Positions 1 to 21,980 of a stretch of 64,000 bases of DNA are shown here, piece by piece. How positions within the stretch are numbered: the stretch's first letter is position 1; each line of letters starts with the position of its first letter. Position numbers and translations under genes: made by a program. The notes beneath the pieces were generated by a model. It was not told the origin of the DNA, made no database searches, and was given only the letters and a program-made list of their open reading frames with translations. Origin of the DNA: Geoglobus acetivorans (GTDB taxonomy: Archaea > Halobacteriota > Archaeoglobi > Archaeoglobales > Archaeoglobaceae); assembly GCF_039641995.1 (NCBI RefSeq), contig NZ_CP087714.1, positions 1,740,328 through 1,804,327 of the forward strand. Direction: 5' to 3'.

Positions 1-1076
1 GCATAAGGATTGACGGCAGAGAGGTATCATGCGAATCCGGAAAATACCTCATCGAGATAGCTCTTGAGAACGGCATCTACATCCCAAACCTCTGTTATCA
101 TCCCAACATTTCGCCTGCTACACGTTTCGAAGGTGCTGAAAAGGTTTTCAGAGGTAGTGAGATTTTTGAGGGTAATGCGGGCCACTACGATGGCTGCGGG
201 ATATGTGTTGTGGAGGTTAACGGAAAACCGGTCAATTCGTGCGAATACGTTCCTCAGGGTGGGGAGGATGTTGTAACCGACAGCGATTCCCTCAGAGAGG
301 AGAGGCAGAGGAGGCTTGCGGAAATTCTTGCCAATCATCCGCACGTCTGCATAACCTGTGAGTACAGGCACGGCTGCGACAGGATTCAGTGCAGCTTCGG
401 AAACCCGGTTGAGGAGAGGTGCTGTGATCTGTTTCCTGTTTGCGAATTGAGACACCTCGCCGAGTATGTGGGAGTAGCAGACCACACGCCAAAATACGTT
501 TTCAGGGACCTGCCCGTTGTGGAGGAAAAGCTTTACCGGTGGAACTGGAACTACTGCATAAACTGCACCAGATGCGTGAGGGCCTGTCAGGAAATCAGGG
601 AAGCCGGGGCTTTGAGCTTCACCGTCATTGATGGTGGAGTGTTGGTGGGCAGAACCGCTGAGAGCGATACCCAGTCAGGGTGCAAGTTCTGCGGGGTGTG
701 TGTTGAGGTGTGTCCCACCGGCACCGTCAGGGATCTGAAGGGCAGGCAGAAGAACAGGTGGAGAGAATCCATATCGGCCAAAATGCTTGCACCCCTGCAT
801 GAGGCGATCCCGCTGAGTGAAGAAAACGTTGAAGATGTCCCGGAAAAGGCCGGAGTTTTCAGGCTTTTCAACGAGTCGATGGAAATCGTTTACATAAAGG
901 GGACGGAGAACCTGAAAGAAGAACTTATGAACGAGCTTGGAAAGGCCGCATTTTTCGATTATGTTGAGGACGAGATGTACACGATGAAGGAGAGCGAGAT
1001 GATTCAGGAGTACCTCCAGAAACACGGGACAATGCCGCCCATGAATGACGAGGAGGATGACCTTTTCGACATCTGA
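1..1076 (+). CDS. NuoG/HydA-type iron-sulfur electron-transfer protein (5' end outside window)
   Basis: The frame is open from base 3, so the N-terminus is missing; 357 residues are visible. In order they show a [2Fe-2S] ferredoxin domain (Cys 31 in LCYHP, Cys 65 and 68 in GCGICVVEV, Cys 80), a NuoG-like His/Cys segment (HPHVCITC, then several more Cys), and two [4Fe-4S] motifs (CINCTRCVRAC and CKFCGVCVEVC). The spacing between the first two [2Fe-2S] cysteines is about 33 residues, longer than the usual ten or so. No molybdopterin domain follows; the protein ends in an acidic tail (DDLFDI). By family it should pass electrons between NAD(P)H or ferredoxin and a partner enzyme. It lies 18 bp before a thiolase operon and near a putative ring reductase, so a role in supplying electrons to acyl-CoA chemistry is an inference. 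Confidence 0.85.
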   Translation, partial: IRIDGREVSCESGKYLIEIALENGIYIPNLCYHPNISPATRFEGAEKVFRGSEIFEGNAGHYDGCGICVVEVNGKPVNSCEYVPQGGEDVVTDSDSLREERQRRLAEILANHPHVCITCEYRHGCDRIQCSFGNPVEERCCDLFPVCELRHLAEYVGVADHTPKYVFRDLPVVEEKLYRWNWNYCINCTRCVRACQEIREAGALSFTVIDGGVLVGRTAESDTQSGCKFCGVCVEVCPTGTVRDLKGRQKNRWRESISAKMLAPLHEAIPLSEENVEDVPEKAGVFRLFNESMEIVYIKGTENLKEELMNELGKAAFFDYVEDEMYTMKESEMIQEYLQKHGTMPPMNDEEDDLFDI

Positions 1077-1094: not shown

Positions 1095-2270
1095 ATGTCT
1101 GCTGGAAGGAGGGTAGGAATCGTAGGCGTTGGCTGTTCAAAATTCGGTATCCGGGATGATGTGACGCTTCAGGAGCTTGCCTTTGAGGCCGTGAGCGAGG
1201 CCCTCAGTGACGCCTCTCTCACAAAAGACGATATCGAAATGAGTGTTGTGGGCATCGCTGGAACGAGGAGCTATGAGCTGATGCCCGCCGTTCCCATAAA
1301 CGAGTACTGTGGGTTCGCCGGAAGAGGCCCGGTGAGGGTTGAGGCCGCATGCGCAACGGGAAGTGCGGCCGTTTACACGGCCTACTCAAGCATAGCATCC
1401 GGCATGGTGGATGTTGCCATAGCTGTGGGCGTGGAGAAGATGAGTGAGGTGGACACGCCGACCTCCCTCGCTGTTGGTGGCAGGAGCGGGAGCTACCTTT
1501 GGGAGTTCCACCAGTACGGGACAACATTTCCCGGATACTATGCGATGCACGCCTCCGCCCACATGGCCGAGTATGGAACAACTGAGGAGCAGATGGCTCT
1601 TGTTGCAGTTAAAAATCACAGAAATGCTGTTCACAACAAAAAGGCCATGTTCAGGAAGGAGATATCTCTTGAAAAGGCTTTGGGCTTGAGATACGTTGCT
1701 TACCCCCTGAGGCTCTTCGATTGCAGTGCGATTACTGACGGCTCCTCGGCGGCAATTCTCGCAAGTGAGGAGAAAATCAGAGAGCTTGGAATTGACAATG
1801 CTGTGTGGATTGAAGGCGTGGGCTTCAGCAGTGACACCGCCAACATGACCAGGAGGGAGAGCTACACCACGCTTAAAGCCACGGTGAAGGCAGGCGAGAT
1901 GGCATACAGGATGGCCGGGATTGATGAGCCTGTCAAACAGCTCGATGTTGCAGCGGTCCACGACTGCTTCACCATTGCGGAGATTATGGCATACGAGGAC
2001 CTGAGATTCTGCAGGAAGGGTGAGGGCGGGAAGTTCGTTGAGAGCGGCGATTCTGATTTCGGCGGAAAGCTTCCGGTTAACACGTTTGGAGGGCTTAAGG
2101 CAAAGGGTCACCCTCTTGGAGCCACGGGAGTTGCGATGTTTTACGAGATCGTGAAACAGCTGAGAGGTGAGGCGGGCAGGTTGCAGGCAGATCTGAAGAA
2201 CCACAGAGGTCTGACGCACAACATTGGTGGCACCGGGCATTTTGGCTGGGTTTTCGTGCTGGGGGTGTGA
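1095..2270 (+). CDS. Thiolase (acetyl-CoA acetyltransferase, SCP-x/archaeal type)
   Basis: A 391-residue thiolase-fold protein. Cys 86 in EAACATGSAA is the expected acyl-accepting nucleophile, and the C-terminal half has the family's HDCFTIAE and GHPLGATG blocks. Thiolases cleave 3-oxoacyl-CoA with CoA, the last step of beta-oxidation, or run in the condensing direction. It is followed after 3 bp by a DUF35 protein; archaeal thiolases of this group form complexes with DUF35 partners, which is known for HMG-CoA pathway relatives. Neighbouring hydratase and dehydrogenase genes favour a catabolic role. The start is the ATG after GGTGATTTT. A second thiolase/DUF35 pair is encoded at 25.6-27.3 kb. 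Confidence 0.9.
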   Translation: MSAGRRVGIVGVGCSKFGIRDDVTLQELAFEAVSEALSDASLTKDDIEMSVVGIAGTRSYELMPAVPINEYCGFAGRGPVRVEAACATGSAAVYTAYSSIASGMVDVAIAVGVEKMSEVDTPTSLAVGGRSGSYLWEFHQYGTTFPGYYAMHASAHMAEYGTTEEQMALVAVKNHRNAVHNKKAMFRKEISLEKALGLRYVAYPLRLFDCSAITDGSSAAILASEEKIRELGIDNAVWIEGVGFSSDTANMTRRESYTTLKATVKAGEMAYRMAGIDEPVKQLDVAAVHDCFTIAEIMAYEDLRFCRKGEGGKFVESGDSDFGGKLPVNTFGGLKAKGHPLGATGVAMFYEIVKQLRGEAGRLQADLKNHRGLTHNIGGTGHFGWVFVLGV

Positions 2271-2273
2271 CTG

Positions 2274-2705
2274 ATGGGTGATGAGAGGTTCACGATCGAA
2301 AGCAGACAGTTCGTTCTCAGACACAGGATTCCTGCCACAAAAACTGAAAGGTACTGGAAAGGGCTGGAGGAAGGAAAAATCTATGCCACCGTCTGCAGGA
2401 ACTGCGGTGCGGCCTTCTCACCGCCCCAGACCGACTGCAGTTCATGCTACACTTCCGACATGGAATGGGTTGAGATCGAAGGAGATGGGGTTGTGGAGGC
2501 GTTAACTCAGATACACAGCATTCCTCAGGGATTTGAGTTTAAGGGTGAACCTTACACGATTGCCGTTGCGAGGTTCGGGGCTTTCAGGGTGATGGGGTGG
2601 TTTGAGGGCGATGAAACACTGAGTGTTGGTGAGAAAGTAAGGGCAATAACCGGCAGGGACGAAACGGGAGTCTGGAAGGTTTATTTTGAAAGGGTAGGTG
2701 ATTGA
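2274..2705 (+). CDS. DUF35 zinc-ribbon/OB-fold thiolase partner
   Basis: A 143-residue protein with an N-terminal helix, a rubredoxin-like zinc ribbon (Cys 41, 44, 55, 58) and a C-terminal OB fold, the standard DUF35 layout. Family members bind acyl-CoA and bridge thiolases to partner enzymes. It starts 3 bp after the thiolase stop and its own TGA is directly followed by the ATG of the enoyl-CoA hydratase, so the genes are almost certainly co-translated. No catalytic residues are expected. Confidence 0.9.
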   Translation: MGDERFTIESRQFVLRHRIPATKTERYWKGLEEGKIYATVCRNCGAAFSPPQTDCSSCYTSDMEWVEIEGDGVVEALTQIHSIPQGFEFKGEPYTIAVARFGAFRVMGWFEGDETLSVGEKVRAITGRDETGVWKVYFERVGD

Positions 2706-3488
2706 ATGAGCTCAAAAAGCTTTGAAAGAATAAGGCTTGATTATGATGGAGATGTGGCAATTTTAACGCTTAACAGGCCCGAAAAGCTAAATGCACTCGA
2801 TTCAAAAACCAGGATGGAGCTGAAGCAGGCTCTGGACGAGGTCGAGCAAAAAGCGAGGGTCCTCATCATTACCGGATCGGGAAAGGCGTTCGCCGCAGGT
2901 GCGGACATAAATGAGCTTCTTCAGCGAACATCGCTTGACAGTATGGAGGCGGCAAAGCTCGGGAGTGAGCTGTTCAACCGGATTGAGGAGCTGGACATCC
3001 CTGTCATTGCAGCAATCAACGGTTACGCTCTTGGCGGAGGATGCGAACTTGCTATGGCATGCGATATAAGGATCGCAAGCAGGAGGGCAAAGTTCGGACA
3101 GCCCGAAATAAATCTCGCTCTGATTCCCGGAGCTGGAGGAACCCAGAGGCTGCCCAGGCTTGTGGGCATCGGGATGGCAAAAAAGCTGATCCTGACGGGG
3201 GAGATCATTGACGCCGAGACAGCCCTCAGAATCGGCCTTGTGGAGGAGGTCGTGGAGGAGGACAGGCTGATGGACAGGGCAGCAGAAATTGCAGAAAAGA
3301 TCGCTGAAAAATCGCCAGTTGCGGTTAAGTTTGCCAAGAAGGCGATAAATTCTGCAAGATCAATGAGTCTTCCGGATGGTTTGAAGTACGAGCTAACACT
3401 CTTCTCGATGCTCTTCTCCACACACGATGCCAGGGAGGGCATGAGAGCGTTTCTTGAGAAGAGGAAGCCCGAATTCAGGGGGAATTGA
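2706..3488 (+). CDS. Enoyl-CoA hydratase (crotonase family)
   Basis: A 260-residue crotonase. The oxyanion-hole segment AGADI is at 64-68, and both glutamates used by true hydratases are present: Glu 114 in GGGCEL and Glu 134 in GQPEI. It should therefore hydrate 2-enoyl-CoA to 3-hydroxyacyl-CoA, though cyclic dienoyl-CoA hydratases share this pattern, so a ring-derived substrate is possible. It follows the DUF35 gene without a gap and is one base from the 3-hydroxyacyl-CoA dehydrogenase, giving consecutive beta-oxidation steps in one operon. Confidence 0.92.
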   Translation: MSSKSFERIRLDYDGDVAILTLNRPEKLNALDSKTRMELKQALDEVEQKARVLIITGSGKAFAAGADINELLQRTSLDSMEAAKLGSELFNRIEELDIPVIAAINGYALGGGCELAMACDIRIASRRAKFGQPEINLALIPGAGGTQRLPRLVGIGMAKKLILTGEIIDAETALRIGLVEEVVEEDRLMDRAAEIAEKIAEKSPVAVKFAKKAINSARSMSLPDGLKYELTLFSMLFSTHDAREGMRAFLEKRKPEFRGN

Positions 3489-3489
3489 A

Positions 3490-4410
3490 ATGAAGATTGA
3501 TACTGTTGGCGTTGTCGGTTTTGGGTTGATGGGAACGCAAATCACACAGTTTTTCGCTCAGAAGGGTCTAAAAGTAGTTGCTCTGGATGTCAGTCGTGAT
3601 GCTCTGGAAAAGGGGATGGCAGGAATAAGGGACGGCAGATTCGGCCTCAGAAGGCTTGTTGAAAGGGGAAAGCTGAGCGAGGACGAAATGGATGAGATTC
3701 TGGGAAGGATCAAAACCACGACAGATTATGAGGATTTGAAGGACGCTCAGCTTATAATAGAGGCTGTTTTCGAGAGCATAGAGCTCAAAAAACAGGTTCT
3801 CGGGAAAATAGCCGAAGTGGCGGATGATGCGATCATAGGCTCGAACACATCCTCGATAAGCATAACCAAACTCTCCGGAGCGGTCAGGCAGCCAGAAAAA
3901 TTCCTCGGAATACATTTCTTCAATCCTGCGCAGATCCAGAAGCTCGTGGAGCTTGTAAGGGGTCTGCTGACTGACCGGGGCCTGATGGAGGATATCAGGG
4001 CGTGGTTTACTGAGCTTGGAAAGGTTCCAATCATGGTCAACGACTCTCCCGGATTTGCCACAACACGTCTCGGCCTGACTCTTGCTAGGGAGGCGCTGTT
4101 GATGGTGCAGGAAGGTGTAGCAACACCGCAGGACATAGACATCGGGATGATGCTTGGTTACGGATACCCGATGGGACCTCTCGAAACGGGAGACCTTGTT
4201 GGCTGGGACACGAGGCTCAGAATACTCGAATCGCTGTTCGAGATGACCAAGGATCCGAAGTGGGCGCCTCCGAAGCTTCTCGTGCAGCTTGTGGATGCGG
4301 GCTACACAGGAGACCCGAGGGTGAAGATGGAGAGCAGGGGAGGGATATACGAGTACTTCGGTCAGGAAAGGCCAACCGAACTTTTAAAAAGGCTCGGCGT
4401 CAGAAAATAG
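3490..4410 (+). CDS. 3-hydroxyacyl-CoA dehydrogenase
   Basis: A 306-residue NAD-dependent dehydrogenase with a Rossmann fingerprint (GVVGFGLMG at 7-15), the catalytic His 142 in HFFNP and Glu 154 in the following helix, then the C-terminal dimerisation domain. It oxidises 3-hydroxyacyl-CoA to 3-oxoacyl-CoA, the step after the hydratase encoded upstream. The longer frame upstream lies inside the hydratase gene; the ATG at 3490, one base after the hydratase stop, gives the normal family N-terminus (MKIDTVGVVG). Two other dehydrogenases of this family are encoded in the window (27.3-29.3 kb fusion and 58.3 kb). Confidence 0.92.
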   Translation: MKIDTVGVVGFGLMGTQITQFFAQKGLKVVALDVSRDALEKGMAGIRDGRFGLRRLVERGKLSEDEMDEILGRIKTTTDYEDLKDAQLIIEAVFESIELKKQVLGKIAEVADDAIIGSNTSSISITKLSGAVRQPEKFLGIHFFNPAQIQKLVELVRGLLTDRGLMEDIRAWFTELGKVPIMVNDSPGFATTRLGLTLAREALLMVQEGVATPQDIDIGMMLGYGYPMGPLETGDLVGWDTRLRILESLFEMTKDPKWAPPKLLVQLVDAGYTGDPRVKMESRGGIYEYFGQERPTELLKRLGVRK

Positions 4411-4430
4411 CTGACGTTCGGGTGATGTGT

Positions 4431-4877
4431 ATGGAGAACCTTTATTTTGAGGACTTTGAGGTGGGAATGGAGTTTGAAACTGCCGGCAGGACGGTTACCG
4501 AGGCAGACATAGTTAACTTTGCAGCAATATCCGGGGACTGGAATCCCATCCACACCGATAAGGAGTTTGCAAAAAACACCGTTTTCGGGGAGAGGATAGC
4601 CCACGGTCTTTTGACCCTCGCAATAGCGAGCGGTCTGATAACGAGAATGAGGCTCGTGGAGAGGACCATAGTGGCATACTATGGAATTGAAAGACTCAGG
4701 TTTACCAAACCCGTTTTCATAGGGGATACGATAAAGGCTGTTGTGAGGGTTGTTGACAGGGAAGAGAGGGAAAAGTACGGCATCGTAACCTTTGAAGTCA
4801 ATGTGGTCAAGCAAACTGGGGATGTGGTTCTAACCTACATCTCAAAATCTGCAATCAAAAAGAAGGGTGGGCTGTAA
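4431..4877 (+). CDS. MaoC-like (R)-enoyl-CoA hydratase
   Basis: A 148-residue hot-dog fold protein with the hydratase-2 motif: Asp 36 and His 41 in GDWNPIHTD, followed by IAHG. Such enzymes hydrate enoyl-CoA to the (R)-3-hydroxy ester. The frame extends upstream into the dehydrogenase gene, but the ATG at 4431, about 4 bp after GGGTGAT, gives the usual start MENLYFEDF; ATG 4425 is an alternative. It is the last gene of the plus-strand operon and ends 21 bp from the converging Oah-like gene. Confidence 0.88.
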   Translation: MENLYFEDFEVGMEFETAGRTVTEADIVNFAAISGDWNPIHTDKEFAKNTVFGERIAHGLLTLAIASGLITRMRLVERTIVAYYGIERLRFTKPVFIGDTIKAVVRVVDREEREKYGIVTFEVNVVKQTGDVVLTYISKSAIKKKGGL

Positions 4878-4898: not shown

Positions 4899-5831
4899 TT
4901 ACTCGAGTTCCGCCCCGCAGACAAGGCAGAATTTCGAACTGTCCGGCAGAAACTCTGCACCGCACTTTTCACATTTTTTCATCAGCGGGCCATACGGGTA
5001 TCTGGGATCCATTCCCTCGCCGATCTTCTTCCTGATCTCCCTCATTCTCGGTTTCCTCTTCTCCTTGAATGCCCACAGCCCTTCAGACGGCTCGACACTG
5101 CCTATGTTCAGCGAGAACCAGGCCTTCCCGTGCTCCCAAGTGAGCCTCCAGATCAAGTCCCTCCACCAGTTCAGGTGAACCTTGAAGTACCACAGGCTTG
5201 AGGCAGACAGGTCGAGCATCCTGTCGATGTACTCCCTGACCTTTTCGTCCAGCTTTTCAAGTGGGACAACCTCGTTCACAACTCCCCACTGGTATGCCGT
5301 CTTCGCATCAATCTCGCTGCTCAGCATAACAATTTCCGCTGTTCTCTTGATGCCCATGTGGAGCGGTAGCCATTGAGACAGGCCACCGATCGAGGTCATG
5401 CCAACTCGTGGACCGGGAGATATGAATCTGGCGTTTTCACTTGCTATGGCGAGGTCACAGGCAGCAACAAACTCGAAGCCTCCTCCTGCCGTAACCCCAT
5501 TGACCCTGGCAATTACGGGCTTCCCGCAGTGCATTATCATGTCAAAAACTCTGCCGTAAATCTCGCCCCACTTCCAGAAGTCAGACGATTTTTTAGTGTA
5601 CTCCTCAGCGTACTCGTGGACGTTTCCCCCTGTGCAGAATGCCTTGTTTCCGACACCCGTCAGAACTATGAACTGCACGTCGTCGTCCCACATGGCATCC
5701 TCAATTGCTGAGACCATCTCCCGCAGGGTCGTGAGGGTGTAGGAGTTGTGTTCGTGGGGGCGGTTTATGGCTATCAAAGCGGTGTGGTCATACCACTCCT
5801 TGTCGTAAATTATCTCCTTATATTCGGTCAT
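4899..5831 (-). CDS. oah: BamA/Oah-like ring-opening hydrolase homologue with C-terminal zinc ribbon
   Basis: A 310-residue crotonase-fold protein. GGNVHEYAE at 68-76, GGGFEF (Glu 120), GPRVG...SIGG at 140-150 and KAWFSLN near 236-242 resemble 6-oxocyclohex-1-ene-1-carbonyl-CoA hydrolases, which open the ring formed in anaerobic benzoyl-CoA degradation. It lacks the second glutamate of simple hydratases. It is shorter than typical BamA (about 360-380 residues), missing an internal stretch, and ends with a zinc ribbon (Cys 287, 290, 302, 305) that I do not know from that family. The gene has its own promoter and lies 141 bp downstream of the putative ring-reductase operon on the same strand. 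Assignment to a ring hydrolase rests on motif recall; another crotonase activity is possible. Confidence 0.7.
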   Translation of the reverse strand: MTEYKEIIYDKEWYDHTALIAINRPHEHNSYTLTTLREMVSAIEDAMWDDDVQFIVLTGVGNKAFCTGGNVHEYAEEYTKKSSDFWKWGEIYGRVFDMIMHCGKPVIARVNGVTAGGGFEFVAACDLAIASENARFISPGPRVGMTSIGGLSQWLPLHMGIKRTAEIVMLSSEIDAKTAYQWGVVNEVVPLEKLDEKVREYIDRMLDLSASSLWYFKVHLNWWRDLIWRLTWEHGKAWFSLNIGSVEPSEGLWAFKEKRKPRMREIRKKIGEGMDPRYPYGPLMKKCEKCGAEFLPDSSKFCLVCGAELE

Positions 5832-5847
5832 GATAAATACTGGTATT

Positions 5848-5905
5848 ACTTAAATATAAATTTTACGAATTACGATATTGAGTTAAGAAAAGTTTACAAA
5901 GTAAT
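5848..5905. promoter_or_regulatory. Promoter of the Oah-like gene with bipartite upstream element
   Basis: Read on the minus strand, a TATA-like ATTTATATTTAAG lies about 25 bp before the ATG at 5831, suggesting a leaderless or nearly leaderless transcript. Just upstream of it are TTTACGAATTA (5862-5872, plus orientation) and GTTTACAAAGTAAT (5892-5905). The same two elements with the same spacing occur at 16190 and 20567. Confidence 0.5.
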
Positions 5906-5972
5906 AAAAGCAGATTCAAAATCTTGAAAATGTTAGAGGGTGGCCTTTCCCCAGTTTTTCTTAGTTGTTATT

Positions 5973-6776
5973 TTATTTTTTAAATTTTTTGAATTTATCC
6001 CGTGCGATTAACGCTGCCCCGTAAGCCCCGGCTATCTGAGGCTCTTCCGGTACGAGTATCTTCACACCCAGTTCTCGCTCTATTGCATTCACGACTCCTC
6101 TGTTCTTTGCCACACCGCCGGTCATCACGACATCCTCCACAACGCCGACCTGCTTCACGAGACCGTATATTCTCTTTGCTATGGACTCGTGAAGTCCAGC
6201 CACGATATCCTCAGCCTCCTCACCCTGTGCAAGCAGGGATATCACCTCACTTTCGGCAAAAACAGTGCATACGCTCGTTATGGTGATTTTTTTTCTGCTT
6301 CTGAAGTGCATCTCGCTCATCTCGTCTAAGGACACCCCCAGCCTCTCTGCCATCACCTCGAGAAACTTTCCCGTCCCTGCTGCACACTTGTCATTCATCG
6401 TGAATCTGACAACCTTGCCCTCCTCTGATAGCCCGATCACCTTGCTGTCCTGACCTCCGATGTCTATGACCGTCCTGGCACTCCTGAAAATTTCCTTTGC
6501 GCCCGTTGCATGGCATGTTATTTCCGTAACCTTCTCATCGGCAAAGTGCTGGGATGCGAGATTCCTTCCGTAACCTGTAGCGACTCTGAACGCCACGTCC
6601 TCCTCATCAAGCCCGGCATTTCTGAGACAGTCGAGGTATGCTTTTCTGCCACTTTCCGACAGCTTTGCCTCCGTCTTTGCGATGTGGTAACCTGCAATGT
6701 CTCCATTTTCATCCACAACACAGACCTTGATTGCCAGCGATCCGATATCTATTCCAGCGAAGTACAGAACCACCAC
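5973..6776 (-). CDS. ATP-dependent activator of 2-hydroxyacyl-CoA dehydratase/benzoyl-CoA reductase family (HgdC/BcrD-like)
   Basis: A 267-residue ASKHA-fold ATPase. Phosphate-binding motifs DIGSLAIK (10-17) and DIGGQDSK (105-112) and the two cluster-bridging cysteines, Cys 131 (NDKCAAGTG) and Cys 170 (TSVCTVFAE), are all present; in this family a homodimer holds one [4Fe-4S] cluster between subunits and uses ATP to push an electron to the partner at very low potential. Its length fits HgdC or BcrD, not the larger BcrA. It is the last gene of a four-gene operon, 9 bp after the 411-residue subunit, starting with GTG. No second ATPase subunit is encoded in the window, so if the partner is a benzoyl-CoA reductase it would be driven by a homodimeric activator or by a second subunit encoded elsewhere. 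Confidence 0.9.
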   Translation of the reverse strand: MVVLYFAGIDIGSLAIKVCVVDENGDIAGYHIAKTEAKLSESGRKAYLDCLRNAGLDEEDVAFRVATGYGRNLASQHFADEKVTEITCHATGAKEIFRSARTVIDIGGQDSKVIGLSEEGKVVRFTMNDKCAAGTGKFLEVMAERLGVSLDEMSEMHFRSRKKITITSVCTVFAESEVISLLAQGEEAEDIVAGLHESIAKRIYGLVKQVGVVEDVVMTGGVAKNRGVVNAIERELGVKILVPEEPQIAGAYGAALIARDKFKKFKK

Positions 6777-6785
6777 CTGCGTGAC

Positions 6786-8021
6786 CTATGATATTGACTC
6801 GAGATAGGCATCGATAAGGTTTTTGGCTCTTTCGAGAGGCATCAGCCTTGGATCGCACTGGGGTGCCTCGAGGATGAGGCTGCTTATGCCAAGCTCTTCC
6901 TGCAGGACCTTTGCAAGCGGTCTGACTATCATTGACGTTATCCTGCATCCCGTGTTTTCGAGAAGGAGCGCACCGTCGATGTCTGCTTTCTTGGCTGTTT
7001 TCACAACACTGTCGAGCATCTCGTAGCCCGAGTTGGTGACGTGCATCGACCTTCTCACCATGCTTTCAAAGGGCTTTGAGGCATCGACCCTGTGAACGGA
7101 CGCGTTCACGTACAGGTTCACCGGGAAATTCGCGCCATTGCTCTCACAGTATTCGTACAGCGAGAGAGTGTGCCAGGGCATTATCCCGAATGTCAGGAGC
7201 CTGTGCTTCTCGTCTGAGACCCCTTCCCGTCTCTTCACCCTTTCTTTCATCATTTCGTGAGCCTTTTTCATGAACTCGTAGGCATAATCACTCCCGAGAA
7301 CGAAAAATGCAATGAAAACGAAGTCTCCAAGTTCTCTCTGACTTGCCGGAGTGGGTGTGGACATCATCAGGTTCAGGGTTTCGATGAGCAGTCTGGATGT
7401 CTTCTCCGAGATTGCGAAAACCTCTCTGAACTTCTCCTCATCGTAAGGGCCTGCGACGGACTCCATGAAGCCCATGAGATCCTTCAGCCTTTCGACGGTG
7501 TATTCCATGTAAAGTTCTTCAGCCCATTCCGCCTCCTTCGTGATTTCATCGAGGTTTCTCAGGGAGTCTGACGTCCAGTACGGGTAGTTTATCACATATC
7601 TCGGCACACCGTAATACTTGGCAAAAACGTCGGCCATCTCGTGGTGTGCGACGCACAAAGCCCTCGTTCCGACAATGAAATCTGGCCTGGGCATCAGAGG
7701 CTTTGTCGCCTTTTCCGGCTCGAGAATCATGCCGAGGGTCGTCTTGAAGTAGTCGCAGATGAAATGGCTGTATCCATGTGAAATTGCCGAGTCTATCAGC
7801 TCAGATGAGCTGCCTCTGGCGGCGCAGTACGCAGAGTACTGCTCGGGAAATGCTGGAATAACGTCGAAAACGTATATGAGTTCGGAAGGATGGAATGAGA
7901 AGAACCACCCCACGGGTCTGTTCTTCTCTGCAAGCCTGCTCTGTCTTTCGAGGTGCTTCCTGAAAAGCTCCCTGTAGAGGGTTTTATAACCGATGTGATT
8001 CCACTCTGCCATAAACATCAT
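6786..8021 (-). CDS. BcrB/HgdA-like subunit of benzoyl-CoA reductase/2-hydroxyacyl-CoA dehydratase family
   Basis: A 411-residue protein of the HGD-D family. Candidate cluster ligands are Cys 66 (YSAYCAARG), Cys 89 (HFICDYF) and Cys 359 (ENTGCRIT); Cys 123 and Cys 389 are also present. The stretches MPRPDF...YWT and the C-terminal CDPRLM block look closer to BcrB-type subunits than to HgdA, by eye only. The family either dehydrates 2-hydroxyacyl-CoA or reduces the aromatic ring of benzoyl-CoA, both through a ketyl-type radical. The tandem ATGs overlap the stop of the 376-residue partner, with GGGAG just upstream, so the two subunits are translationally coupled. The Oah homologue and ligase next door favour ring reduction. 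Confidence 0.82.
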   Translation of the reverse strand: MMFMAEWNHIGYKTLYRELFRKHLERQSRLAEKNRPVGWFFSFHPSELIYVFDVIPAFPEQYSAYCAARGSSSELIDSAISHGYSHFICDYFKTTLGMILEPEKATKPLMPRPDFIVGTRALCVAHHEMADVFAKYYGVPRYVINYPYWTSDSLRNLDEITKEAEWAEELYMEYTVERLKDLMGFMESVAGPYDEEKFREVFAISEKTSRLLIETLNLMMSTPTPASQRELGDFVFIAFFVLGSDYAYEFMKKAHEMMKERVKRREGVSDEKHRLLTFGIMPWHTLSLYEYCESNGANFPVNLYVNASVHRVDASKPFESMVRRSMHVTNSGYEMLDSVVKTAKKADIDGALLLENTGCRITSMIVRPLAKVLQEELGISSLILEAPQCDPRLMPLERAKNLIDAYLESIS

Positions 8022-9148
8022 CTCCCGTGAGATTCAACAAACGCCTCAATCCTGCCCTCGATCTGGGCTTTTGAAAGCGGAAAGTCAAGGTCTATCGTTA
8101 AAACCGGCAGGTCAAGCTCATCGATAATGGCCGGACACTGGTGTCCGCAAACCTCGCAACCCCTGTCCTTGAAAACAATCACAGCCTCAGCCCTACTGGC
8201 TTTTATCCTGTCCCTTATGAACTTCACCCTCTCCAGCACGGAAAGCTCGTTAGATGCGGAGGTCATCACGCATGCGGTTGAATACAGGTATCTGTCTGCA
8301 ATCCCCTCCAGATTAGCTCTGTTTACAATTCCATTGTAGTATCCAGTGGAGGTGCAGAAGTCGTCCGAAACGATTGCAATTCCGTAATTCTCGAGAATCT
8401 TCAGAAGTTCAGAGCTGTAAAAGTCTGTGCCGGAAACATGAACCCTCAGAATGTAGTCTCCGTTTCCTTCCCTCTCTGAAAGAAGTCCGTAAAGCTCTTC
8501 TGCGATTCTGTTAAAGTCCTCTTTCAGCATGTGCATTGAGGAAAGCATGATCAGCATCCACTCTGAAGCGCTTACCTTCACTCTATCCTCGCTCCTCAAC
8601 CTCTCCAGTCTTGTGCAGACCTTTCTGAAGTTGTTGTATGTTTCTATGGATTTTTTCAGTGAGCTGGTATCTGTCTCAAAACCTGTAAACCTTGCAAGAA
8701 AACTCGAAAATCTTTCAAGCTCCCTGATGAAGAATCTTCTCGATTTCTCATCTCTGCTGAACGGATACTGAACCATGTAGGAGAATTCCGGGTTTAAATA
8801 AAAACGGTAGAGCGAAAAAAGATGAATTTTGGTGTCGTCGGAGGTCGTGCTCACGATTCCGTCCAGGAATTCTGTCTCACCCCTCAGTCCGGCCTCCATA
8901 ACGTTTCTTGCATAATAGCACGTCCACTGGGGCATGACGGAGCTGGCGTTAGGCGTGCTTCCGTAGTTTCCGAACACCCTCACCGGAACAGCCCCTGTGG
9001 AATGAATGACTTCCTCGGGAACGTTGTTGCAGAGCGTTCCTATAACCTTCATTCCCTTTTCTCTGTACTCCTTTATCTTTGTCCTGTTATCGATGGCGTT
9101 TTTCATCTGAGCAAACAGTCCCTCAACGCTATCGCTCAACGAAACCAC
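8018..9148 (-). CDS. BcrC/HgdB-like subunit of benzoyl-CoA reductase/2-hydroxyacyl-CoA dehydratase family
   Basis: A 376-residue HGD-D family protein with the typical N-terminal block (Cys 40 in GTLCNNVPEEVIHSTG, then AVPVRV), Cys 77 in QWTCYYAR, and a C-terminal EVCGHQCPAI. These cysteines are the likely ligands of the active-site [4Fe-4S] cluster. It pairs with the 411-residue subunit whose start overlaps its stop. The start is a GTG 4 bp after the ligase stop. The family alone does not separate dehydratase from ring reductase; purification or substrate tests would be needed to decide. Confidence 0.82.
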   Translation of the reverse strand: MVSLSDSVEGLFAQMKNAIDNRTKIKEYREKGMKVIGTLCNNVPEEVIHSTGAVPVRVFGNYGSTPNASSVMPQWTCYYARNVMEAGLRGETEFLDGIVSTTSDDTKIHLFSLYRFYLNPEFSYMVQYPFSRDEKSRRFFIRELERFSSFLARFTGFETDTSSLKKSIETYNNFRKVCTRLERLRSEDRVKVSASEWMLIMLSSMHMLKEDFNRIAEELYGLLSEREGNGDYILRVHVSGTDFYSSELLKILENYGIAIVSDDFCTSTGYYNGIVNRANLEGIADRYLYSTACVMTSASNELSVLERVKFIRDRIKASRAEAVIVFKDRGCEVCGHQCPAIIDELDLPVLTIDLDFPLSKAQIEGRIEAFVESHGR

Positions 9149-9152
9149 CGGT

Positions 9153-10817
9153 TCAGCTACCCTCGAATTTCTTCCTTTCTTCCTCTCTCAGGATTCTCCT
9201 GAGGATCTTGCCGACGGGAGACTTTGGAAGCTCGTCTCTGAACTCTATGATTCTCGGAACCTTGTAGCTTGCAAGGTGCTTTCTTGCGAATTCCACGATT
9301 TCCTCTTCTGTTGCGGTCTCGCCTTCCTTGAGGACTATGAATGCCTTTACAGTCTCGCCCCTGTACTTATCAGGCACACCGATAACTGCGCACTCCTTGA
9401 CCTTGGGGTGCATGTAGAGGACTTCCTCAACCTCTGACGGATAGATGTTGAAACCTCCGGCGATTATCATGTCCTTTTTTCTGTCCACTATGTAGATGTA
9501 GCCGTCCTCGTCCATGTAGCCCATGTCGCCCGTGTAGAGCCAGCCGTCCTTTATGGCCTCCCTCGTTTTTTCCGGGTCATTCCAGTACTCTCTGATTATT
9601 TTCTTGCTCCTGAGAACGATCTCTCCAATGTTCTCCTCACCGGGTGGGAGCGGATTGTCTGTGCCGGGGTCCATTATTCTCATCTCAACAGTTGGAACGG
9701 GCAATCCCGCACTGCCGACCTTTATAACTCCGTGTACCGGGTTGCTCGTGCCTATTATTGCAGCCTCGGTCAGCCCCCACTGCTCTATCACTGTTGCGTT
9801 TGGCATGAGGGCCTTGACCTCTTTCAGAAGCTCAACAGGCACTGGAGCGGAACCGACGCTTATGACTCTTACAGATGAGAAGTTTGCTGTTTTCGAGTAC
9901 GGATGGTTCACGATGGCGACAAGATGTGTTGGCACGCAGTGAATCTGAGTTATGCCGTAGGTTTCAATCGCACTGATGAATTCACCCGCATCGAAGTACG
10001 GGAAGAGGACAACAGTCCCGCCGTTCATGAAGACGTTCATGTTTGATGTCCATATTCCGTTTCCGTGGAACATGGGCATCAGGCCAGAAAAAACATCTTC
10101 GCCCCTTCTTATGTCAAGACATGCAGAAAATATCTTTGCGTCGATCATCAGGTTGCGGTGGGTGTAAACTGCGCCCTTCGACCTCCCGGTTGTTCCGCCC
10201 GTGTATGTTAATGAGGCGACGTCTTCCGGCTTCAGGTCCTTTTCAGGCTTCTTGGGTGAGTGTTTGAGCAGATCGTTGAAGTAGAGAACATTCTCCTTTT
10301 CCCTGATCTCCTGTTCGTGAAGCATCGGGATAAATCTTCTCGCTGAGGGGGATATGAAATCCCTCAGACTTGTGAGGATCACGTATTCGAGTTCGGTTCT
10401 GTCGAGAACGGCCTTCACTCTCTCATACAGGATGTCGAGGGTTACGATCGCCTTGGCTCCTGAGTGGTTCAGCTGGTACTCAAGCTCCCTTTCCGTGTAC
10501 ATCACGTTCGTGTGGACCGCAATCATTCCGTTGCTCAGCGCACCGAAATAGCCTATGTTGAACTGAGGGCAGTTGGGCATGAAAAATGAAATCCTGTCGC
10601 CCCTTTCCAGATATTCGCTCAGTCCACCTGCAAACCTGCAAACGTAGTCAAAAAACTCTCCGTACTTGATCCTGTTCCCGTAATAGATGATGGCATCCTT
10701 GTCTCTGAATTCTTCTGAAACGCTTTCAAGCGCATGGGGAGGAGTGGTGTCCGGCTCTTCGATGTCTTCCGGCCAGCCTATGTACGGATACCATTTTTTC
10801 CAGATCTGATCATTCAT
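9153..10817 (-). CDS. AMP-forming acyl/aryl-CoA ligase
   Basis: A 554-residue member of the ANL superfamily. The P-loop YTGGTTGRSKG is at about 205-215; further on are QWGLTE, the YTGD hinge block, the DRKKDMII core and the C-terminal catalytic Lys in SPVGKILRR. It makes an acyl-adenylate and then the CoA ester. It is the first gene of the operon with the ring-reductase-like subunits, so an aromatic or alicyclic acid is the likely substrate, although its sequence looks like the medium/long-chain fatty acid group. The transcript start would lie within the 10818-11044 gap. Confidence 0.9.
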   Translation of the reverse strand: MNDQIWKKWYPYIGWPEDIEEPDTTPPHALESVSEEFRDKDAIIYYGNRIKYGEFFDYVCRFAGGLSEYLERGDRISFFMPNCPQFNIGYFGALSNGMIAVHTNVMYTERELEYQLNHSGAKAIVTLDILYERVKAVLDRTELEYVILTSLRDFISPSARRFIPMLHEQEIREKENVLYFNDLLKHSPKKPEKDLKPEDVASLTYTGGTTGRSKGAVYTHRNLMIDAKIFSACLDIRRGEDVFSGLMPMFHGNGIWTSNMNVFMNGGTVVLFPYFDAGEFISAIETYGITQIHCVPTHLVAIVNHPYSKTANFSSVRVISVGSAPVPVELLKEVKALMPNATVIEQWGLTEAAIIGTSNPVHGVIKVGSAGLPVPTVEMRIMDPGTDNPLPPGEENIGEIVLRSKKIIREYWNDPEKTREAIKDGWLYTGDMGYMDEDGYIYIVDRKKDMIIAGGFNIYPSEVEEVLYMHPKVKECAVIGVPDKYRGETVKAFIVLKEGETATEEEIVEFARKHLASYKVPRIIEFRDELPKSPVGKILRRILREEERKKFEGS

Positions 10818-11044: not shown

Positions 11045-12070
11045 CTATTCCGGAACGGCATCTTCCTTCCTTACGGTGAACCTCTTTATCTTGCTCCATA
11101 ATCCTTCGGGTGCAATAACAGCCACAGCTATCAGGAGGATGTACAGCAGAACCTCATCGTTCACAGGGACCCATGCCGGAAAAGCCTGAACCGCACCTTT
11201 CAGCCACCAGTTCTTGAGGAGGTATATCACAAACCCGCCAAAAACGGGGCCGTACAGTGTACCAAGTCCGCCTATGACTGCAGACAGTATTATCAGCAGC
11301 ATGAGTGGAATGTCGTAAACATCGGGCCCGATGGTTATTCTGTAGTGGACGAGTGTGGCACCACCTATCCCTGCGAAGAACGAGCTTGTAACGAAGGCGA
11401 GGATCTTGTATTTGACAACGTTTATTCCAAGAGCCTCTGCAAGAACCTCGTCATCTCTGACCGCTCTGAACTTGAGGCCTATCTCGCTGTTCACGAGCAG
11501 CCAGATGAGTATGAACGAGATCATGAACACGGCGAATGCGAAGTAGTATCTGAGCAGGGGTGATTCAGCAAGGCCCCTTTCGAGACCTATTGAGAATCCC
11601 TCCTCACCACCGAATATGCTTGAGAAGACGTACACCGACTGCATGAACACGAGGGGCAGTATTGCGGTAACGAGCGAAAAGTAGTAACCCTTCAGTCTCA
11701 GCGTAATGATGCCTATGCCAAGTCCGAAAAGCGCCGCAACTATACCCCCCATGAGGATTGAGACGGGTACCGGTACGGGGGACATGCCCGCCAGGAAATC
11801 CACCGAACCTGAGAATCTGGACGGAACCTGGAGCAGAGCGGCAGTGTATGCCCCGAGACCAACAAAAACCGTGTGGCCGAGGTTGACCTGTCCCGTGTAT
11901 CCCACGATTATGTCCCAGCTTATCGTCAGGACCAGAAATATCATGGTGAGGCCCAGCAGGTACAAGAACGCCTCTGAAACAGCAAACGGGATAGCAAGCC
12001 CCGCTATGAGGAATATTGCCCATGCGATTATCTGCCTGATATCCATCTCCGGCAATTTCGATACTGTCAT
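11045..12070 (-). CDS. livM: Liv-type ABC transporter permease, LivM
   Basis: A 341-residue inner-membrane permease with about nine hydrophobic segments and the LivM signature (GYTGQVNLGH near the N-terminal third, LKGYYFSLVT, GGLGTLYGP). The frame is open further upstream, but the ATG at 12070 overlaps the LivH stop (ATGA) and follows GGTGGAAG, so I take it as the start. LivHM form the channel of branched-chain amino acid importers; in aromatic degraders, related systems import aromatic acids, and the genomic setting here makes that reasonable. Confidence 0.92.
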   Translation of the reverse strand: MTVSKLPEMDIRQIIAWAIFLIAGLAIPFAVSEAFLYLLGLTMIFLVLTISWDIIVGYTGQVNLGHTVFVGLGAYTAALLQVPSRFSGSVDFLAGMSPVPVPVSILMGGIVAALFGLGIGIITLRLKGYYFSLVTAILPLVFMQSVYVFSSIFGGEEGFSIGLERGLAESPLLRYYFAFAVFMISFILIWLLVNSEIGLKFRAVRDDEVLAEALGINVVKYKILAFVTSSFFAGIGGATLVHYRITIGPDVYDIPLMLLIILSAVIGGLGTLYGPVFGGFVIYLLKNWWLKGAVQAFPAWVPVNDEVLLYILLIAVAVIAPEGLWSKIKRFTVRKEDAVPE

Positions 12071-12924
12071 TCTTCCACCCCGAAAAGTCCTGTAGGTCTG
12101 AAAACCAGAATGGCAATTATCAGAAGGAGTGTTACGAACTCGGACCACCTCGCCCCGAAAAAGGTTATCACGATTGTGATCACATAACCGACAATGAATG
12201 CGGCAACTATGCTGCCCCTAACGCTTCCAAGCCCGCCGAGGATGACTATAGCAAATGCGTAGATGAGTGACTTCAGGGCCACCATCGGCGTGGCTGCGAA
12301 AACCTGAGTGTACAGTATGCCCCCAATTCCTGCCAGCACGGCAGAGATGAACATGGTGAGCATGAAAATCCTGTCAACATCGATGCCCACAAGCATTGCA
12401 CCTTCAACATTCTGCGAGGATGCGGATACCTTTTTCCCCGTTCTCGTCTTGTTGATGAACACCTCAAGCAGAATCAGACAGATGATTGCGACGAAGAACG
12501 CGAGGATTCGCTTGTATGTGATGGGCACACTCCCTATCCTGAGAACTCCGGTGATTAGCGAGGGATACGAAATGCCGTGCTCCCCGAACAGCAGGATGAG
12601 TATCTGTTCCACGAGGAGTGCAAACGCGAGGGTTACGATTATGATCATGACCTCGTGCTCCTTTATTCTGGCGAGTATTCCGGTGTACAGCGCAACACCT
12701 ATCATGCCCACGAGGAACACCGCTACGAACGATGCTATGTAGGGATCGAGCCCGTATTTGTACAGGCTGATGCCGATGTATGCCGACAGAATAAAAAACG
12801 TGCCGTGGGCAAAATTCAGGATTCTCGAAACACCGAAAATGAGTGAGAAACCTGAAGCAACGAGCGCCCATATTCCGCTTACGACAGCGCCATAGACAAG
12901 TATCCTGAGCAGGATATCTATCAT
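12067..12924 (-). CDS. livH: Liv-type ABC transporter permease, LivH
   Basis: A 285-residue permease with about eight membrane segments and the LivH blocks SGIWALVASGFSLIFGV and ILGGLGSVRGS. It precedes livM with a 4-bp ATGA overlap and follows livK after 72 bp. That gap contains GTTTACA sequences at 12921 and 12971 and A/T runs. It forms the membrane channel with LivM. Confidence 0.92.
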   Translation of the reverse strand: MIDILLRILVYGAVVSGIWALVASGFSLIFGVSRILNFAHGTFFILSAYIGISLYKYGLDPYIASFVAVFLVGMIGVALYTGILARIKEHEVMIIIVTLAFALLVEQILILLFGEHGISYPSLITGVLRIGSVPITYKRILAFFVAIICLILLEVFINKTRTGKKVSASSQNVEGAMLVGIDVDRIFMLTMFISAVLAGIGGILYTQVFAATPMVALKSLIYAFAIVILGGLGSVRGSIVAAFIVGYVITIVITFFGARWSEFVTLLLIIAILVFRPTGLFGVEE

Positions 12925-12996
12925 GGTTGATAATGTGTTTACAAAAAAATAAAAAAATTTCGGTCAAAGTTTACAAATTCTGGAACTTTTTTAAGT

Positions 12997-14325
12997 TCAA
13001 ATCCACGGTGGTAACTTAAGGTCTCCATTCGCGACGGTCGATGGGTACAGATAGTACTGCTTTCCGTCCTGCCACTGGGCTATGAAGTTTCTTACATATT
13101 CATCGCCCCAGACAAGGGCGTGATTGCTGTAGAAAGCAATGTTCCTCGTCAGCTTGGCAGGATTTCCGGGCTTGTATTTCTCAAGGTATTTGACGACAAC
13201 ATCCGGATCAAACGGATTCTTTTCTCCATCCTTATATGCTGCCTCTACCGCCATCTTGTAGAGATATACTGCATCGTACGCTCCATAAGCCTGATGGGAT
13301 TCAGGATAGTGTCCGTACTTCTTCTTGTAATTCTCGATGAACTTGGCCGCCATCTCGGTTGGTGGCGAGGTTATCAGCACACCACCGTCCACAAGGAACA
13401 GCTCATAATTGGCAGCCCCACCGGTCTTCTCGTAGAACTGGGCATCAATTGCGGCGAGATCATGACCACCGAGAATGGCAGGTATCTGCAGTTCAGCCCA
13501 CTGCTTTGCGAGAACATCTCCCGTTCCGGAAATGGCGAGTATCGGCATTATCAAATCCGCACCTTTGTCCTGAGCGTCAAGAAGGATCTGCTCATATTCG
13601 GTAAACCCTCTCGGAACCTTCTGATCTCCAACAATTTCTATTCCTCTTTCCTCAAGCAGAGGAGTCAGACCGGCAACAACAGGGTCGGTCCAGACGTGCT
13701 CATCTCTTATGATGTACACCTTGTTGATTTCAACACCCTTGCTTCTCAGGTAGTCTATCATGGCTGCAAGGTCCAGCGCGAAGGTTGAACCGTTGTTCTG
13801 ACTCACCCTGAACCAGTACTTGTACTTGTCATAGTTTTCGGCGACCATTTTCGGATGCACGGGACTTGAGGCATCCGAAAGGAATATCGTCTTTGTTTCA
13901 GCCATAACCTCCATCATTGCGCTCATGACTCCGCTGCTGAACCCTCCCGTGATCATGTCTGCATTTTCCTGTGTGGCGAGCCTTCTGAATTCGGCAGTTG
14001 CAGTATCCGGGTTGAGTTTCGTATCGCCTACGACGAGTTTCACTGGAAGACCGAGAATTCCACCCTGCGCGTTTATCTCATCAACTGCAAGCTGGGCTGC
14101 ATTCTTCTCAGCAGTTCCTTCAGGCAGAGACATGGGTCCTATGACTCCGATCACAACCTCCGTTTTCCCTCCAAACTTGGGTGTCGGGGTTGCGGTGGCC
14201 TGTGGAGTGGGCGTGGGTGTAGCCTGGGGTGTGGGTGTAGGTGTCGCTTCCGGCTTCTGCTCCTGAGCGCATCCGAGTGCCAATGCTGCCACCAACACCA
14301 GAACTAATATCAGTTTTTTCATCAT
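12997..14325 (-). CDS. livK: Liv-type substrate-binding lipoprotein
   Basis: A 442-residue periplasmic-binding-type protein. It has a lipoprotein signal with Cys 19 in LALGC, then a Thr/Pro-rich linker at about 27-50 that would hold the domain off the membrane, then a type 1 binding fold (GVIGPMSLPEG, AVDEINAQGGILG). The ligand cannot be read from sequence; branched-chain amino acids or aromatic carboxylates are both known for this family. It is first in the livKHM operon and is divergent from livGF. Confidence 0.9.
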   Translation of the reverse strand: MMKKLILVLVLVAALALGCAQEQKPEATPTPTPQATPTPTPQATATPTPKFGGKTEVVIGVIGPMSLPEGTAEKNAAQLAVDEINAQGGILGLPVKLVVGDTKLNPDTATAEFRRLATQENADMITGGFSSGVMSAMMEVMAETKTIFLSDASSPVHPKMVAENYDKYKYWFRVSQNNGSTFALDLAAMIDYLRSKGVEINKVYIIRDEHVWTDPVVAGLTPLLEERGIEIVGDQKVPRGFTEYEQILLDAQDKGADLIMPILAISGTGDVLAKQWAELQIPAILGGHDLAAIDAQFYEKTGGAANYELFLVDGGVLITSPPTEMAAKFIENYKKKYGHYPESHQAYGAYDAVYLYKMAVEAAYKDGEKNPFDPDVVVKYLEKYKPGNPAKLTRNIAFYSNHALVWGDEYVRNFIAQWQDGKQYYLYPSTVANGDLKLPPWI

Positions 14326-14381: not shown

Positions 14382-15077
14382 ATGAAACCCCTACTCAAAG
14401 TTGAAAATGTTAAGAAAAAATTCGGTGAACTCGTTGCACTGGAAAATATTTCATTCGAAGTGTTTGACAGAGAATGTCTGGGTATAATTGGCCCAAATGG
14501 AGCAGGAAAAACAACGCTCTTCAATGTTATTTCGGGTCATATGAGGCCTACAGAAGGGAGAGTGTTCTTTGACGGGAAGGACATTACCGGAAAGAGGCCG
14601 AGCGAGCTTGTGAAGCTTGGACTTGTAAGGACGTTTCAGATTATAAGGGCATTCAGGAACATGACCGTGGAGGAGAATTTCCAGGCGGTTGGTGGAGACT
14701 ATGAAGGTATCATGAAGGAACTGGGTTTGTGGGGCAAGAGGAACATGGTTGCAAAGAACCTCTCCCAGGGCGATCTGAGAAAGCTGAATATAGGTCTTTC
14801 ACTGACAACAAAACCCAAACTTCTGCTTCTCGATGAACCGTTTTCGGGCTTAAGTCCGAAAGAGTGTGCAGAGCTTCATGCGGTAATAGACCACCTGAAG
14901 GAACGGGGAGTAACGATGGTCATTATTGAACACAAGCTCAAGGAGCTATTCAGCCACGTGGAAAGAGTTCTGGTGCTGAACTATGGCATACTGCTTTGTG
15001 AAGGTAAGCCGGATGAAGTTGTGAACGACGTGAAGGTTATTGAAGCATATCTCGGTGATGGGTATGCGGTTGCTTGA
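14382..15077 (+). CDS. livG: Liv-type ABC transporter ATPase, LivG
   Basis: A 231-residue ABC ATPase with Walker A GPNGAGKT at 37-44, a signature written LSQGDLRK where LSGG is usual, and Walker B LLLLDEP. It powers the LivHM channel with LivF. The ATG sits at the distance expected for a leaderless start from the TATA box at 14350. Confidence 0.92.
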   Translation: MKPLLKVENVKKKFGELVALENISFEVFDRECLGIIGPNGAGKTTLFNVISGHMRPTEGRVFFDGKDITGKRPSELVKLGLVRTFQIIRAFRNMTVEENFQAVGGDYEGIMKELGLWGKRNMVAKNLSQGDLRKLNIGLSLTTKPKLLLLDEPFSGLSPKECAELHAVIDHLKERGVTMVIIEHKLKELFSHVERVLVLNYGILLCEGKPDEVVNDVKVIEAYLGDGYAVA

Positions 15078-15753
15078 GGTCAGAAATCTGAATTCATTTT
15101 ACGGAAAGGCACACGTGCTTCACGACGTCTCGCTGCATGTGGATAAGGGCGAGACACTTGCAGTCCTCGGACCCAACGGAGCGGGAAAAACGACCCTGCT
15201 CAATTCGATATGTGGCATGGTGAGGACTGAGGGTGAGATACTCTTCAAGGATAGGGAAATCTCCTCTCTGAAACCCTACAGAAGGATCAGGCTTGGCATG
15301 GGAGTGTGTCCGGAGGGCAGAAAACTCTTTCCGGATATGACGGTGGAGGACAACCTCCTGCTTGGAGCGGGAAACGGAAATGCCAAGGAACAGCTTGAAT
15401 TCGTTTATGATCTATTCCCGAGAATAAAGGAGCTGAAGAATAATGTTGTTAAAAACATGAGTGGTGGGGAGCAGCAGATGGTCGCAATCGGCAGGGCGCT
15501 GATGTCCAATCCCGAGCTCCTTCTGCTTGATGAACCATCGATGGGGCTTGCACCGATAATTCTCGGGAAAATTATGGAGGCACTGAAAAGGATAAGGGAG
15601 GAGACAGAGATATCCATACTTCTCGTTGAGCAGAACGTCCATCTGGCGCTTCAGCTTGCTGACAGGGTCAGCGTCCTCGTCAAGGGCGAGATAGTGAGTG
15701 AGGGGAAGGCGGAGGAGATGGTCGATCTCGAGAAGCATTATTTTGAGCTGTAA
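15064..15753 (+). CDS. livF: Liv-type ABC transporter ATPase, LivF
   Basis: A 229-residue ABC ATPase with Walker A GPNGAGKT at 36-43, signature SGGEQQ and Walker B LLLLDEPSMGLAP. Its start overlaps the end of livG. Among several possible starts (15040, 15058, 15064) the ATG at 15064 has GGTG at the best spacing and gives the usual MRLLEVRNL beginning. It is the second ATPase of the importer. Confidence 0.92.
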   Translation: MRLLEVRNLNSFYGKAHVLHDVSLHVDKGETLAVLGPNGAGKTTLLNSICGMVRTEGEILFKDREISSLKPYRRIRLGMGVCPEGRKLFPDMTVEDNLLLGAGNGNAKEQLEFVYDLFPRIKELKNNVVKNMSGGEQQMVAIGRALMSNPELLLLDEPSMGLAPIILGKIMEALKRIREETEISILLVEQNVHLALQLADRVSVLVKGEIVSEGKAEEMVDLEKHYFEL

Positions 15754-15777
15754 AACGGGGTGATGGGGTTGCCTGTT

Positions 15778-19593: not shown

Positions 19594-19594
19594 T

Positions 19595-20566: not shown

Positions 20567-20642
20567 TTTACGAATTAAAATTTTGGCCTCAATTAACTTT
20601 ACAAACTTAACAGAAAGTTATTTATACGATTTACTGTGTAAT
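20567..20642 (+). promoter_or_regulatory. Ligase promoter with bipartite element
   Basis: TTTACGAATTA (20567-20577) is followed by CTTTACAAACTTAAC (20597-20611), then the TATA-like TTATTTATACG (20619-20629) and TTTACTGTGTAA (20630-20641). The ATG is at 20680. Here both elements lie upstream of the TATA box. Confidence 0.5.
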
Positions 20643-21975: not shown

Positions 21976-21980
21976 TAGCA

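Follow-up and report, generated by a model that had tools for sequence, protein, structure and literature searches.

A second ATP-driven system of the benzoyl-CoA reductase/2-hydroxyacyl-CoA dehydratase family, with a single activator, in Geoglobus acetivorans

A five-gene cluster with one activator

We analysed a stretch of 64,000 nucleotides from the archaeon Geoglobus acetivorans (assembly GCF_039641995.1, contig NZ_CP087714.1, positions 1,740,328 to 1,804,327; hereafter the window), in which five genes at 10817–4899 of the minus strand encode an acyl-CoA ligase, two subunits of the HGD-D family (beta and alpha), a single activator ATPase and, last, a crotonase. The cluster is genuine and conserved: a second ATP-driven member of the benzoyl-CoA reductase/2-hydroxyacyl-CoA dehydratase (BCR/HAD) family, with one activator, which lies beside a complete benzoyl-CoA reductase operon. 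Coordinates and Pfam matches (Table 1) bear out the gene order of the original prediction, made from the letters alone, as well as its hydratase, dehydrogenase and thiolase genes facing the cluster on the plus strand; its archaeal host is confirmed by orthologs found by name in Geoglobus and Archaeoglobus metagenome-assembled genomes (MAGs).

The ligase and beta genes are separated by 4 bp, beta and alpha overlap by 4 bp, and the activator follows alpha after 9 bp and the crotonase follows the activator after 141 bp, a spacing that suggests one operon. All five genes have dN/dS values of 0.013–0.076 against the nearest genome, similar to the 0.017–0.041 of the neighbouring bzd genes, and are thus maintained. 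The activator passes a single model, the general activase domain TIGR00241 (278 bits, above its cut-off); it carries the cysteine motifs NDKCAAGTG and VCTVFAESEV, aligns to HgdC (234 bits) and HadI and, as the one activator gene of the cluster, would work as a homodimer.

Table 1. Genes of the cluster and its neighbours (positions in the window)
Feature	Position	Strand	Details
Acyl-CoA ligase	9153-10817	-	554 aa; Pfam AMP-binding, 275 bits
Beta subunit, HGD-D family	8018-9148	-	376 aa; Pfam HGD-D (209 and 179 bits for the two HGD-D subunits); GCEVCGHQC motif
Alpha (predicted catalytic) subunit, HGD-D family	6786-8021	-	411 aa; Pfam HGD-D
Activator ATPase, HgdC/BcrD type	5973-6776	-	267 aa; Pfam BcrAD_BadFG, 245 bits
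Crotonase with zinc-ribbon-like C-terminal end; candidate archaeal 6-oxocyclohexene-carbonyl-CoA hydrolase (Oah)	4899-5831	-	310 aa; Pfam ECH_1, 167 bits
Thiolase, DUF35 partner, enoyl-CoA hydratase, 3-hydroxyacyl-CoA dehydrogenase, MaoC; lower-pathway genes opposite the cluster	1095-4877	+	Pfam
NuoG/HoxU-like protein with a ferredoxin domain, immediately after bzdNOPQ	1-1076	+	Start 16 bp before base 1
ABC transporter permeases and binding protein, branched-chain amino acid/aromatic acid type	11045-14325	-	Pfam, synteny; kept beside ligase-beta-alpha
ABC transporter ATPases (14382-15753) and conserved small gene of that transporter unit	14382-16179	+	Pfam, synteny

A complete bzd-type benzoyl-CoA reductase outside the window

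A whole-genome search returned four HGD-D proteins and three ATPases of the BadFG type. Two HGD-D proteins and two ATPases are encoded to the left of the window as a bzdN-bzdO-bzdP-bzdQ series, with the end of bzdQ 35 bp before base 1 and a dienoyl-CoA hydratase (Dch) homolog farther left. BzdO (468 bits, cut-off 449) and BzdQ (415 bits, cut-off 380) exceed their curated cut-offs, and BzdN reaches 395 bits (cut-off 454); the two ATPases cluster with other BzdP and BzdQ proteins in the activator tree. Judged by these sequences, G. acetivorans possesses a standard class I benzoyl-CoA reductase of the bzd type, with two ATPases, and PMC6500515 gives the same operon in Ferroglobus placidus as Ferp_1184-1187.

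Since a complete bzdNOPQ adjoins the window, the cluster is an additional system and not a BCR lacking one ATPase, and the operon just beyond the window edge rules out a one-ATPase BCR. What had been said of a single encoded ATPase therefore holds for the cluster and fails for the genome. The proposed BCR-type reductase stands in so far as a BCR/HAD heterodimer with a single activator lies in an aromatic-degradation cluster, and falls as a description of the archaeon's BCR; likewise, a ring reductase driven by a homodimeric activator survives for the second enzyme and not for the standard BCR. The other two ATPases, where a distant partner for the activator might have been sought, belong to the bzdNOPQ operon. 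An activator shared with bzdPQ is not favoured either: the activator forms its own clade, congruent with those of the two subunits also in genomes where its gene lies elsewhere.

Just upstream of bzdN (L009:10117-10647), a 176-aa protein without Pfam match is 75–98% conserved in the BCR loci examined.

Distribution and synteny

Among 59 genomes of the class, alpha orthologs (68–96% identity) were found in 13, the G. acetivorans window included and F. placidus among them. Of the 14 bzdO-positive Archaeoglobaceae genomes, 13 carry alpha and beta, all but the fragmented MAG G024, against none of the 41 bzdO-negative ones; the corresponding Fisher value of 1e-11 is too strong, because related genomes share ancestry. 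Two species inside the same genera (G026 and G014) are without alpha/beta and bzdO together. The order transporter-ligase-beta-alpha is kept in the genomes with loci long enough to show it, and in genus g3 the activator has been relocated together with the crotonase to a different locus. Bacterial genomes were covered for the alpha/beta clade by a single-query genome scan, in which the orthologs with names were Geoglobus and Archaeoglobus MAGs, and a plasmid search gave only distant relatives (20–25% identity for alpha).

The crotonase is present in 15 of the 59 genomes, all bzdO-positive, including two of another family (G055 and G056, family f2) that are without alpha/beta. No bacterial-form Oah was found in the G. 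acetivorans genome, where the crotonase is the best TIGR03200 (bacterial Oah) match but remains below cut-off. It is therefore a candidate for an archaeal ring-opening hydrolase replacing bacterial Oah.

A clade of its own

Protein trees were built for the HGD-D family (78, 34 and 30 rows) and for the activators (50 rows), with references that left out FldBC, HgdAB and BcrBC. The cluster proteins form their own clades with support of 100/100 (alpha), 100/99 (beta) and 99/94 (activator), and in each the partners come from the same second archaeal family, f9; because each clade is common to the same partners, alpha, beta and activator evolve as one unit. The activator clade also includes two outsiders, the activator of a candidate A. 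sulfaticallidus genome and a Sulfurovum activator on a long branch, and it falls outside the HgdC/HadI clade. None of the reference groups, namely BzdN/O, MbdN/O, HadB/C, the pairs of A. fulgidus type and of Azoarcus/Sphingopyxis type, and the double-cubane cluster protein (DCCP), takes in the alpha or the beta clade, so that neither subunit stands among the dehydratases sampled.

In the approximately unbiased (AU) test, a grouping of alpha with HadB was rejected (p=0.018; FldBC and HgdAB outside the tree), and one of alpha with BzdO was not (p=0.14); for beta, neither a grouping with BzdN (p=0.094) nor one with HadC (p=0.092) was rejected. The cluster proteins remain below the BCR equivalog cut-offs, with 61 bits for BzdO (cut-off 449), 88 for BzdN (454), 88 for BcrC (421) and 180 for BzdQ (380). 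Neither alpha nor beta passes any curated cut-off; the best curated match of alpha is HadB (122 bits), and the best model for beta is a double-cubane reductase (129 bits, cut-off 350). The three proteins represent a separate, apparently undescribed subfamily of BCR/HAD radical enzymes. A literature search returned no paper on BCR phylogeny with the double cubane and none on a dehydratase in Syntrophoarchaeum.

Other members of the family were also seen. An archaeon bearing methyl-coenzyme M reductase (MCR) encodes a heterodimer with one activator (L141, G082:C122:1-5051), in which beta is BzdN-like with six double-cubane cysteines and alpha has a His131 equivalent. In genera g13 and g9 (L095 and L096), another HGD-D protein on a long branch adjoins a pair of diverged activators. 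Plasmid-borne heterodimers with a single activase occur in Azoarcus, Sphingopyxis, Rhodobacteraceae and Rhodococcus (L142, L145, L149, L151), near genes for short-chain dehydrogenases/reductases (SDR), CoA-transferases or ligases, and form their own clade.

Catalytic residues and cluster ligands

In BzdO, the active site comprises the ligands Cys95, Cys128 and Cys380 together with Glu65 and His131, and BzdN binds an [8Fe-9S] double cubane through Cys36, 73, 100, 263, 293 and 327, whose replacement by alanine gives unstable protein (PMC11971306). The alpha subunit matches the BzdO site with C89, C123, C359, E60 and H126, all invariant in its clade, and Y91, Y304 and W39 also match cluster or catalytic residues of BzdO. 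At the His131 position the alignment places V in HadB and in the A. fulgidus-type protein, F in MbdO and G in Azoarcus-type rows; the true structural partner in HadB may differ, because PMC11971306 gives alanine there. Tree and catalytic residues together appear to place the system nearer to ring reductases than to the dehydratases known so far.

The beta subunit retains five of the six double-cubane cysteines of BzdN, C36, C263 and C293 among them, and alpha carries no extra ones. In all members shown, f9 included, Cys100 is replaced by Asp (SDDT instead of SCD) and position 330, a His near the distal sub-cluster in BzdN, is Cys (BzdN numbering). We know of no description of a cluster coordinated with Asp and Cys ligands exchanged in this way. 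Double-cubane cysteines as such were discarded as proof of a BCR, being present in DCCP and the A. fulgidus-type pair and absent from MbdN. The predicted beta fold (pLDDT 83) is nearest BzdN, with small differences in Z score (BzdN 43.9, HadC 41.8, DCCP 40.4, MbdN 39.6). The ring-contacting Leu302 and Leu383 of BzdO correspond to Ser308 and Thr362 in alpha, so that the ring pocket would be more polar and compatible with a polar substituent.

A possible reductase of hydroxybenzoyl-CoA

Our preferred reading, which we hold tentatively and with somewhat less than even confidence, is that alpha, beta and activator act as an aryl-CoA reductase that depends on ATP and most likely removes the hydroxyl group of a hydroxybenzoyl-CoA, chiefly 4-hydroxybenzoyl-CoA. 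A narrower version is rather doubtful: a molybdenum-free, ATP-dependent 4-hydroxybenzoyl-CoA reductase filling a gap in F. placidus, with a double cubane whose Asp and Cys ligands are exchanged.

Reduced ferredoxin would deliver electrons to the [4Fe-4S] cluster of the activator, where ATP hydrolysis would lower the electron potential. The modified double-cubane-type cluster of beta would store the electrons, and the [4Fe-4S]-OH2 centre of alpha, flanked by Glu60 and His126, would pass them to a CoA ester supplied by the adjacent ligase. In this way 4-hydroxybenzoyl-CoA would be reductively dehydroxylated to benzoyl-CoA, whose ring BzdNOPQ would then reduce, Dch hydrate and the window crotonase open.

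Known phenol and 4-hydroxybenzoate pathways need 4-hydroxybenzoyl-CoA reductase (HcrABC); this enzyme contains molybdenum and belongs to the xanthine oxidase family, and alpha/beta/activator would stand in for it. No protein of that family (PF20256) was found in G. acetivorans, F. placidus or any genome with alpha/beta. In the two f2 genomes, which bear BCR and are without alpha/beta, HcrC/HcrA(/HcrB)-like genes are followed by a benzoate-type ligase; for the HcrA-like proteins HcrA is the best-scoring family, with 681 and 645 bits against a cut-off of 995, and the G055 ligase scores 391 bits, above its cut-off. This suggests that HcrABC and alpha/beta replace one another.

The physiological link runs through F. 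placidus, which grows on phenol and 4-hydroxybenzoate (PMC3236036). The window ligase is 77% identical to a gene of this species at L056:4214-5881. Published Ferp_1033-1034 (2-oxoacid:ferredoxin oxidoreductase) match two genes at L055:11987-14556; counting onward from these by gene order and our own gene calls, not by the GenBank record, the crotonase is Ferp_1040, the activator 1041, alpha 1042, beta 1043 and the ligase 1044. Ferp_1044 is the benzoyl-CoA ligase reported in PMC6500515, active in heterologous lysate. At the same locus, a MNT/HEPN-type pair (L055:18277-19060) lies between the thiolase/DUF35 genes and the crotonase.

Several observations weigh against dehydroxylation. Reduction of hydroxybenzoyl-CoA by the molybdenum enzyme needs no ATP. 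The complementarity of Hcr and alpha/beta amounts to a single evolutionary contrast, drawn between two families, and PF20256 was also not found in the tested same-family relatives without alpha/beta (G026, G014 and G001); given this one contrast and these relatives, the replacement of Hcr is a lead that physiology supports but falls short of proof. The AlphaFold model of alpha (pLDDT 37) is unusable. Activity of Ferp_1044 with benzoate was small, and the excerpts of PMC6500515 do not mention 4-hydroxybenzoate. Growth of G. acetivorans on aromatics was not seen (PMC4600277), though the genes are present. Finally, family f9, which has canonical-type MCR genes and no bzdO above cut-off, carries alpha, beta and activator next to beta-oxidation (fatty-acid) and methylmalonyl-CoA-mutase-type (B12) genes, so the chemistry of the clade need not be the same everywhere, nor tied to aromatics throughout.

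Alternative functions

A second dearomatising reductase with a homodimeric activator is an unlikely, though serious, candidate; it might act on benzoyl-CoA, on a substituted ring (methyl- or 3-hydroxybenzoyl-CoA) or, one step further, on a dienoyl-CoA. The BzdO-like ligands, Glu and His of alpha, the AU results, which reject neither alpha with BzdO nor beta with BzdN, the beta fold and the tight linkage to a benzoyl-CoA ligase ortholog all agree with it, but BzdNOPQ next door already covers the reaction, the ring pocket is more polar and both f2 BCR genomes do without alpha/beta.

The capture of a 2-hydroxyacyl-CoA dehydratase (the function of HgdABC, HadBCI or FldBCI) by an aromatic cluster had been put forward in the original prediction; it is weakened by the AU rejection of alpha with HadB and now appears improbable. 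Substrates of such an enzyme might be, for instance, CoA esters of the phenyllactyl or mandelyl type. The single activator, the HadB match of alpha, the unrejected grouping of beta with HadC and the fatty-acid-like context in f9 still speak for it. Against it, the double-cubane cysteines C36 and C263, which HadC has lost, are present in beta, alpha retains His126, the activator is not within the HgdC/HadI clade, and no CoA-transferase or 2-hydroxyacid dehydrogenase was recognised in the operon in the open-reading-frame and Pfam survey.

An ATP-driven double-cubane reductase for a small molecule, or a system for electron supply to or protection of BCR that does not act on the aromatic ring, would fit the best model score of beta, the reduction of small molecules by DCCP (PMC11971306) and the near-strict co-occurrence with BCR, but it is very improbable for a heterodimer with a complete substrate-type alpha site, whose genes are linked in a conserved way to those of the ligase and the transporter and not to bzdNOPQ.

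Should dehydroxylation of hydroxybenzoyl-CoA by alpha/beta/activator be correct, it would add a further anaerobic archaeal route for hydroxylated aromatic acids, and one enzyme family would span dehydration, ring reduction and ring dehydroxylation; the C100D/330C exchange would provide a naturally occurring variation on the [8Fe-9S] cluster, itself rare. The apparent gap in the phenol/4-hydroxybenzoate pathway of Ferroglobus becomes directly testable, and a candidate for the archaeal ring-opening hydrolase is named.

Further along the window, positions 17206-29916 hold an aldehyde ferredoxin oxidoreductase, part of a PaaK-type ligase, parts of an ADP-forming acyl-CoA synthetase and a POR-type gene, which together look like an island for the oxidation of aromatic 2-oxoacids.

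Comparison with known systems

Class I BCR of the bzd type (BzdNOPQ; PDB 8s02) shares with the cluster its fold, the heterodimer of two HGD-D subunits, the benzoate cluster context, the alpha ligands with Glu65 and His131 and five of six double-cubane ligands in beta. It differs in having two activator genes instead of one; the cluster proteins carry C100D and 330C in beta, remain below the curated cut-offs and form their own clade, with a genuine bzdNOPQ next door. The 2-hydroxyacyl-CoA dehydratases (HadBC/HadI, PDB 3o3m; HgdABC) resemble the cluster in their one activator, the alpha cysteines, the Glu, a VGW motif and the overall family. They are set apart by the double-cubane cysteines that beta keeps and HadC has lost, by His126 of alpha, by a ligase in place of a CoA-transferase, and by the rejected joining of alpha to HAD. 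DCCP/DCCR (PDB 6eno, 7yyl) have the beta cluster cysteines and a single activator in common with the cluster; DCCP is a homodimer with a double cubane per subunit, whereas the cluster has two HGD-D genes, one of them for a substrate-type subunit, and C100D and 330C. HcrABC belongs to an unrelated protein family, a molybdenum protein of a kind missing from the alpha/beta genomes; the likeness is confined to the proposed reaction and to the comparable genomic setting, next to a ligase, that its genes occupy in the f2 relatives.

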